Source: Lentilactobacillus parabuchneri DSM 5707 = NBRC 107865
GTDB lineage: Bacteria; Bacillota; Bacilli; Lactobacillales; Lactobacillaceae
DNA length: 64,000 nucleotides
Direction of reading: 5' to 3'
Assembly (NCBI RefSeq): GCF_001435315.1
Contig: NZ_AZGK01000003.1
Location: 124,001-188,000 of the forward strand
Positions within the stretch are counted from its first letter, which is position 1, and each line of letters starts with the position of its first letter. The notes under the pieces were generated by a model, which was given only the letters and a program-made list of their open reading frames with translations, searched no databases and had not been told where the DNA came from. The position numbers and the translations under genes are program-made. This document shows, piece by piece, positions 17,138 through 60,908 of this stretch.

Positions 17138-17166
17138 TTGACAAAGTAATAAAACGATGATAAAGT
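17138..17166 (+). promoter_or_regulatory. Promoter of the metA-metY leader
   Basis: TTGACA (17138-17143), 17-bp spacer, TAAAGT (17161-17166). Transcription would start near 17173, giving a leader of about 575 bases before metA. Confidence 0.8.
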
Positions 17167-17172
17167 TACAGA

Positions 17173-17727
17173 CAATTATTAAAGATAAATTAGACGTTGA
17201 AGAGAAGAGTAGCGTTAACGTGAATCTAAAGAGAACTTCGTTTGGTGAGAGAAGTGATTTACGAAGATGTGAAGATGAGCTCTGAGTCAGGTATCCGGTC
17301 AAAAGGCTAGGATGCCCGGGGGCAACCGATATATTGCGAAGTATAGGAGAGTGCGAGCTGGGGCGTCCAGCAACCGGAGCCTAAGCGGACTTTCGGGGAA
17401 ATCGAGTCTGATTTCACCGGAAGTTGGCTTAGGTGCAGGTTGCTGCCCCAGCGAGCACGTTTCTGCAAGGTAAAAGTGTTAATTGTTCACTGTTATTTTG
17501 CCGAAACGTGCTCCGACGGGCCTGACGCTAACTTCTAAGCAATGATTAATTCAAATCCAAAATCAGGATTTCAATCAATCATTACTTAGAAATCGCGTCA
17601 CCCAGCCCTCGTCGCACTCTTCCGTACTTTCCAAGATTGTCCCTGCGAAGAGGCAATAAATCAGGGTGGCACCGCGAAGCTTTCGTCCCGTAGTTTTTAA
17701 ACTACGTGGACGGAAGCTTTTTTTATT
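17173..17727 (+). promoter_or_regulatory. T-box leader of metA-metY (methionine type, interrupted by a hairpin element)
   Basis: Stem I is visible at about 17190-17290: an AGTAG motif, the helix CGTGAATC/GATTTACG, and an apical part with AGAGA and GGTGAGAG. ATG at 17267-17269 sits where the specifier codon should be and fits tRNA-Met and the downstream genes. The T-box sequence AGGGTGGCACCGCG is at about 17663-17676, and the terminator pairs GAAGCTTTCGTCC with GGACGGAAGCTT before a T run (to 17725). About 275 bases of hairpin-rich sequence separate the two parts. Uncharged tRNA would stabilise the antiterminator and switch the operon on. Confidence 0.9.
17346..17622. mobile_element. Candidate MITE-like hairpin element inside the metA T-box leader
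   Basis: Ends GGAGAGTGCGA (17346-17356) and TCGCACTCTTCC (17612-17623) are inverted repeats. Inside are three consecutive long hairpins: 17357-17452 (GCTGGGGC/GCCCCAGC plus inner AGCAACC/GGTTGCT and GCCTAAGC/GCTTAGG), 17453-17513 (GAGCACGTTTC/GAAACGTGCTC) and 17514-17614. No open frame is present. The alternative is a native extension of the leader. Confidence 0.5.
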
Positions 17728-17748
17728 TAATTTAAGGAGATGATTTGG

Positions 17749-18624
17749 ATGACAGCAAATGCAGTGAATGGCTTTTTGAACGCAGATGAAAAGTGGGTCA
17801 ACCACGAATTAACGAATCCTTTATCGATCTTGGTGTTGAATCTGATGCCAACGCGACGAAATACCGAAGCACAATTTCTACATCGGTTCAGTGAGATCAG
17901 CTCGGACGCGGAATTAACCTTCATGTATCCGCAGTCACACCAATTCAAAGGCACCTCCAGGGCTGCCATTGAACGCGATTATGTTTGCCTTGACCAAATC
18001 AGGGATGCCCACTTTGACGGCCTGATTGTCACTGGCGCTCCGGTAGAAACCCTGCCGTTTGCACAAGTCGATTACTGGGATGAACTCCAGCAGATTCTTG
18101 AGTGGGCCAAAACCCACGTGACTCAATGCCTATATGAATGTTGGGCTGCCCAAGCCTGTTTATTTCACGACTTTGGGATTCGAAAGCACCTTTTAACCAG
18201 TAAATTGTTTGGGGTTTATCCGGCTGATCGAATTGCGGCCGACTCTCCAATTGCCAAAGGCTTTGGGGCCGGGGGATTGCTGAAAATGCCACAGTCCCGC
18301 CACACGTCGATTGTCCTCGATGAAGATCATCTGCCTGAAGGGTTGACGGTTGATGCTTCTGCCGAAGCCACCGGACCGATCATTTTATCGGAAAGTGGCC
18401 TTCACAGCACTTACATTACCGGCCATCCGGAATACGCTGAAGGCACGCTGGCCCGTGAATACTACCGCGATCTTTATGAGCAGATGCCGATCAGACTTCC
18501 AAAGAACTATTTCATTGATCAGGATTCGGGAACAGTTGATTACTCGTGGAAAAACAGCAGCATCCAAATTTATGATAATTGGTCAAAAATCATTTCAAAT
18601 AAGAAAGTAGGCTTATCAATATGA
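17749..18624 (+). CDS. metA: Homoserine O-acyltransferase (MetA type, probably acetyl-CoA dependent)
   Basis: First step of methionine synthesis from homoserine, 291 residues. The nucleophile is C131 in [16 protein letters not shown] and the catalytic histidine-glutamate block is [18 protein letters not shown]100 in VTGAPVE corresponds to the position (Glu111 in longer homologues) that favours acetyl-CoA over succinyl-CoA. This agrees with the neighbouring O-acetylhomoserine sulfhydrylase. ATG 17749 is nine bases after AAGGAG; an ATG at 17740 touches that site and is unlikely. It is controlled by the T-box leader upstream and overlaps metY by four bases. Confidence 0.93.
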
Positions 18625-39034: not shown

Positions 39035-39220
39035 TTAATCGATATATTCGAGTAGAGGCGCATTCATTATAAGTATATTTCAGGAACTTGAAGGAAGTTA
39101 TGACTGAAGTAAAAAGGGATGAGTGCCGAAACAATCAATCGCCTTCCGGTTGGTTGTTGGGCCCTAACTTAAGAGGTTAGGGACTGTCGTGGCAGATACC
39201 GCGGGGAGCTATCAAGATGT
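39035..39220 (+). promoter_or_regulatory. Lysine riboswitch (L box)
   Basis: Conserved core elements appear in order: AGAGGCGC with AAGTA (about 39054-39075), AAGGGATGAGTGCCGAA (about 39114-39130), TTGGGCCC then GGACTGTCGTGGCAG (39177-39195) and GGGGAGCTATC (39203-39213), which closes with GATA of the 5' side. Lysine binding should favour the terminator at 39234 and shut off the permease. Confidence 0.88.
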
Positions 39221-60751: not shown

Positions 60752-60809
60752 ATTTGAGTACTTGTTTTTAGGGATAAGTTTGCCCTAAACGAGTTTGTAT
60801 TAGCTTTGA

Positions 60810-60870
60810 TGTGAAAGGTTGCGACACACCCGGATGCTTTGCCATGGGTTTGGCGGTAATTTTCACGGAG
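60810..60870 (+). promoter_or_regulatory. Structured S10 operon leader
   Basis: GTGAAA near 60811 pairs with TTTTCAC near 60861; an inner ACCC/GGGT stem lies between. It may serve autoregulation by L4 as in other Firmicutes; this is inferred. Confidence 0.4.
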
Positions 60871-60908
60871 TTAGTCCTATTTTCAAAATAGACGAAGGAG
60901 GGAACACA

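Follow-up and report, generated by a model that had tools for sequence, protein, structure and literature searches.

The window analysed here, a stretch of 64,000 nucleotides from Lentilactobacillus parabuchneri, includes an intact metA gene preceded by a T-box leader, the parts of which are listed in Table 1. By Rfam covariance-model search, the leader was identified as RF00230 at positions 17188-17693 (506 nt), with a match of 62 bits (E 4e-13) spanning model positions 1-219; this score is below the Rfam cut-off of 93 bits, as are those of most T-boxes of the host genome. A preliminary description of the locus had listed an upstream promoter and a methionine T-box with an ATG specifier, and both were recovered, the former as a promoter-like sequence. 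The AUG specifier is retained across the metA leaders compared and fits the downstream gene, and complementarity equivalent to the Stem IIA/B pseudoknot is present in the leaders of relatives. The leader has all the core parts of the tRNA-Met class of RF00230, including the antiterminator/terminator switch as judged from sequence and fold, but differs from this class in carrying a 273-nt insert of mobile repeats before Stem III. The T-box bulge (within 17663-17676) reads UGGC in metA leaders of the buchneri group, while UGGU is expected from the discriminator A of elongator tRNA-Met (taken from the relative G001).

Table 1. Positions in the window of the metA leader, its insert and the downstream gene.
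Feature	Position	Strand	Basis or remark
Promoter-like TTGACA-17-TAAAGT with extended -10 TG	17138-17166	+	Aligned TTGACA/GATAAAGT also in relatives
Stem I with AGAGA / GGUUGGUGAGAG distal motifs	17194-17287	+	Rfam RF00230 alignment
AUG (Met) specifier in GAA-G-AUG-A	17275-17277	+	Deduced from Rfam consensus GAA-n-NNN-A
Stem II	17290-17316	+	Fold and Rfam alignment
Stem IIA/B pseudoknot: CGG/CCG plus GCAA (17322-17325) / TTGC (17334-17337)	17317-17337	+	Rfam alignment
Variable hairpin, 5' arm; AAGTA (17339-17343) pairs with TACTT (17625-17629)	17338-17347	+	Folds of each species' counterpart
Repeat unit A, right end AGAGTGCG to left cap GAGCACGTTTCTGCAAGGTAAAAGTG	17348-17478	+ (gene-sense strand)	nhmmer/blastn family
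9-nt spacer TTAATTGTT between units A and B	17479-17487	.	Deduced by exclusion
Repeat unit B, left cap CACTGTTATTTTGCCGAAACGTGCTC first on + strand, right end GTCGCACTCT	17488-17620	- (gene-sense strand)	cmsearch R1
Variable hairpin, 3' arm	17621-17631	+	Folds of each species' counterpart
Stem III, directly 5' of antiterminator	17636-17657	+	Rfam alignment and fold
T-box motif/antiterminator AGGGTGGCACCGCG...CGTCCC	17663-17689	+	Rfam alignment
Intrinsic terminator, competitor of antiterminator	17677-17726	+	Sequence and MFE fold
metA, homoserine O-acyltransferase family, intact; 82% identity to L. otakiensis	17740-18624	+	

Against the 506 nt of this leader, the other 167 T-boxes listed from four Lentilactobacillus genomes are 305 nt or shorter; the 305-nt T-box is that of L. 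sunkii metA, and the next in length is 283 nt. The leader had previously been put at more than 550 bases; the T-box match falls short of this figure, but its unusual length stands.

The insert, by which the leader is nearly doubled in length, covers 17348-17620 (273 nt); this corrects the bounds of 17346-17622 given before for the element. It contains no ORF, in agreement with the proposed non-autonomous nature, and no terminator-like site was found in it; an Rfam search of the insert gave chance matches to microRNA hairpins only. The three long consecutive hairpins noted earlier were confirmed, with a predicted folding energy of -150.6 kcal/mol; shuffled sequences gave -76.6 (sd 4.6), which corresponds to z -16.3 for the insert. 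The insertion, previously located between Stem I and the antiterminator, is indeed between them, and its site can be refined further: Stem III is separated from the Stem IIA/B pseudoknot by a small hairpin, the length of which varies, and the insert is in the apical loop of this hairpin. Stem III was ruled out as the site since the Rfam alignment puts it downstream of the insert. The small hairpin folds in every relative, ranging from 26 to 110 nt, and its native loop differs from species to species; its base is paired through AAGTA/TACTT in the window, through GGGTA/TACCT in L. kefiri and through GAGTA/TACTT in L. sunkii, and the differences include a two-sided change. The lower stem is kept despite the insert, the outer ends of which stack on the hairpin. 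In known T-boxes, the Stem III region varies in stem and loop with conserved flanking purines, Stem III insertions are frequent in translational T-boxes, and unexplained lineage-specific insertions occur in every T-box domain (PMC7583486).

Composition of the insert

A blastn search with the insert gave 54 matches in the host genome, corresponding to about 50 copies, located outside T-boxes. Among 24 genomes of the genus, the sequence was matched in 11, with 27-44 matches each in six genomes of the buchneri group. The roughly 50 occurrences in the host genome mark the sequence as an insertion and not a native part of the leader, and the real insertion of 273 nt is well supported.

Each copy found elsewhere corresponds to one part of the insert, positions 3-132 or positions 140-276. 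When both types of copies were turned to a common direction, HMM alignments gave the same ends for both, CACTGTTACCTAGNNGAAACGTGCTC on one side and GTCGCACTCT on the other. These common ends indicate that the insert is composed of unit A (reversed), 9 nt and unit B. Accordingly, the insert is a pair of units from a family of modular hairpin repeats, placed head to head around 9 nt, possibly the original loop of the hairpin. Unit B was detected by the covariance model R1 with 127.6 bits (E 1e-29); unit B contributed to the building alignment of R1, and the blastn matches are independent of this model. The ends of the insert are inverted, as the preliminary description had noticed, but are the common right ends of units A and B in opposite orientation and not terminal inverted repeats (TIRs); its single TIR-bounded element is replaced by two head-to-head BOX-like units.

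Transposition of the insert as one TIR-bounded MITE, in a single piece of 273 nt, is unlikely. The inverted outer ends AGAGTGCGA/TCGCACTCT and the closed fold are in line with such an element, but the mutual orientation of A and B in metA was seen at no other locus in the host genome, the units elsewhere standing singly or in same-direction tandem arrays. The single units have unlike ends, whereas a MITE is recognized by terminal inverted repeats, and no target duplication is visible in the flanks GTATAGG / TCCGTAC at metA. As for the two-unit insert, adjacent opposed insertions were not seen as separate steps.

Structure, distribution and placement of the repeat family

In 2.4 Mb read from the nearly complete genome of the relative G001, a total of 67 units were identified in 53 arrays, 12 of which consist of two or three tandem units with a CACTCT junction common to the neighbours. 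Common ends, a hairpin body and covarying pairs were all observed for this family. Among 45 B units, two-sided changes were found in 29 of 38 pairs, and the share of cells that pair is 94.9%, compared with 77% when shuffled and 32-43% when slid; 15 A units gave two-sided changes in 21 of 40 pairs. Among mismatches, as read on the strand used, C-A prevails (53 C-A to 15 G-T for B, and 32 to 3 for A), equivalent to G-U on the opposite strand, the cells not being independent of each other. This excess suggests that the gene-sense strand, beginning with AGAGUGCG, is the transcribed one, through either selection or transcription-linked mutation. The covariation could alternatively stem from a correction of palindromes that resembles gene conversion.

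Under strict filters, the covariance model of unit B gave matches in 24 genomes out of 121 sampled for Lactobacillaceae and in 14 of 40 genera, a patchy distribution, and none in the genomes of other families (148 genomes sampled in the order). Very strong matches to unit B (133 bits) were obtained for G119:C29:4698-4816 and G139:C9:9952-10070, which belong to two other genera and have two copies each, reflecting either horizontal transfer or contamination. No earlier description of such repeats in lactobacilli was found in the open literature library searched.

Among 62 right ends in G001, 33 were located at a stop codon, against 3.5% for random positions, when a stop that ends at least 60 open codons was counted within -14 to +1 of the right end. 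The stops in G001 are mostly T|AG, of which AG is supplied by the first bases of the unit. In orthologues without the unit (for instance at loci L037, L041 and L052), the stop is at the same codon, and hence the proteins are not shortened there. Pairs of empty and filled sites gave breakpoints at the stop codon, and clear duplication was not seen. For three other genera of Lactobacillaceae, 8 of 30 right ends were at a stop codon, and several further right ends in these genera follow T-tracts of terminator-like hairpins. At individual loci of G001 (L167-L286) and of the host genome G000 (L021-L058), the right ends adjoin the stops of neighbouring genes, often forming TAG, and others lie just past terminator T-tracts.

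By its features, the closest known kind of repeat would be the pneumococcal BOX element (boxA-boxB(n)-boxC; PMC3049150). Both consist of short non-coding repeats of modular build, with hairpins that fold by themselves and a variable number of tandem modules, and both are often located at the 3' ends of genes, to which they contribute the stop codon (36 genes in pneumococcus); tandem modular units, hairpins and stop codon supply were all observed in the Lactobacillaceae family. BOX is also associated with T-boxes: in the pneumococcal trp leader, BOX is located between two T boxes and all are co-transcribed, with the operon still off in rich medium (PMC3049150). In contrast, the metA insert interrupts one T-box aptamer, and conserved ends specific to the Lactobacillaceae family are CACTGTTACCTAGNNGAAACGTGC ... 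GTCGCACTCT.

MITEs and REP/BIME elements resemble the family as non-autonomous, intergenic hairpin repeats of high copy number, but the family lacks true TIRs. Among the six repeat-rich genomes, the Y1 (RAYT/IS200) transposase gene is present in G015 and absent from the other five, G000 (host), G001, G008, G013 and G022; RAYT/IS200 was rejected as the mobiliser on this ground.

The precise placement at stop codons and the strong covariation raise the question of how the site is chosen and whether the family serves as an RNA element of 3' ends. One possible, still tentative answer is that these repeats make up an undescribed structured RNA family of Lactobacillaceae that is targeted to the stop codon or just past the terminator and forms part of the gene-sense transcript, the metA copy being a rare off-target landing and the L. 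sunkii copy either independent or shared.

Leaders of relatives and the predicted effect on the switch

The units are absent from the metA leaders of 12 of the 13 other Lentilactobacillus species (L. otakiensis, L. kefiri, L. parakefiri, L. diolivorans, L. parafarraginis, L. raoultii, L. kisonensis and five further congeners), in which a short or unrelated hairpin is present instead. In agreement with the preliminary description, the element is thus an insertion, being absent from orthologous leaders and repeated elsewhere in the genome. The long hairpin of L. raoultii (L065:2730-2850; 110 nt) was rejected as another repeat, since it is unrelated and of single copy in its genome.

The exception is L. 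sunkii, of which the hairpin of 96 nt carries a related insert of about 70 nt at the same point, beginning with AGAGTGCGACG. This end and the cap GTGGA-ACGTGCT fit the repeat family, and the region (L062:2800-2890) contains one right end and one cap with the position and orientation of unit A; as a high-identity repeat the insert was rejected, being of single copy. In a four-gene tree, the window species is located at the base of the buchneri group (support 0.92), apart from L. sunkii, the placement of which is weakly supported. With the two species apart, the common insertion point implies either an old insertion with subsequent losses or two events at the same position.

The adoption of the insert as a regulatory part, such as a pause, a processing site or a timing device, would fit its preserved base-pairing and the short unit-like insert of L. 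sunkii at the same point and in the same orientation, although L. sunkii and the host are not sisters in the four-gene tree. This adoption is quite unlikely, since the insert is not conserved between species and the covariation belongs to the whole family, giving no sign of use at metA.

In predicted folds, 75 of the 76 leader pairs with a probability above 0.5 in the leader without the insert remain in its presence. The insert adds two leader pairs, by which it is stacked on the host hairpin, and an expected 0.04 pairs join it to the leader, supporting the earlier proposal that it folds by itself. With the predicted pairing so little affected, it is plausible that the metA leader still switches, although energy folding is blind to co-transcriptional kinetics. 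The predicted structure of -150 kcal/mol could lead to pausing or RNase cleavage.

A leader already dead, in which the insertion is tolerated since regulation had been lost, is highly unlikely. Its T-box score is the lowest among the metA leaders scanned (62 against 76-84 bits), and UGGC in the bulge mismatches A73, the discriminator of tRNA-Met in G001; but such a loss of score is expected from the insert alone, UGGC is common to close relatives without the insert, and every T-box motif and the terminator are kept.

The reading of the insert as an ancestral domain that works as a native part of the metA T-box is very improbable and is contradicted by relatives and copy number: the hairpin site is present in every relative, with long versions in L. 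raoultii and L. sunkii, but the units are missing from nearly all of these leaders, the sequence is repeated throughout the genome outside T-boxes, and no other interrupted T-box was found among 168 in four genomes except that of L. sunkii metA. The same hairpins in all metA leaders and their absence elsewhere in the genome, by which the preliminary description would have recognized such a domain, were not observed in the leader comparison and the genome search.

We consider it likely that opposed mobile units reside in a hairpin of the metA T-box with the leader parts intact and the switch probably working. Two units of the mobile hairpin repeat, which in its usual setting is a BOX-like element starting most often exactly at the stop codon of a gene, most likely inserted with opposed orientations into the apical loop of this hairpin. 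Self-complementarity of the units, together with pairing between their outer ends and stacking of these ends on the host hairpin, would turn the insert into a closed extension with a four-way junction. Stem I, Stem II, the pseudoknot, Stem III and the antiterminator are predicted to retain their pairing, and the charging of tRNA-Met probably still decides between termination and read-through into metA.

With insert-free relatives at hand, this leader is a clear example of a mobile repeat within a single T-box aptamer with no predicted loss of parts. It allows direct tests of how much RNA is tolerated by a T-box before Stem III and of whether long self-folding inserts alter co-transcriptional switching.

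Elsewhere in the window, an ordinary lysine riboswitch (39045-39219; 117.6 bits) and a weak Rfam match to the S10-Clostridia ribosomal protein leader (60798-60904; 36.6 bits, with the cut-off at 35.1) were detected.
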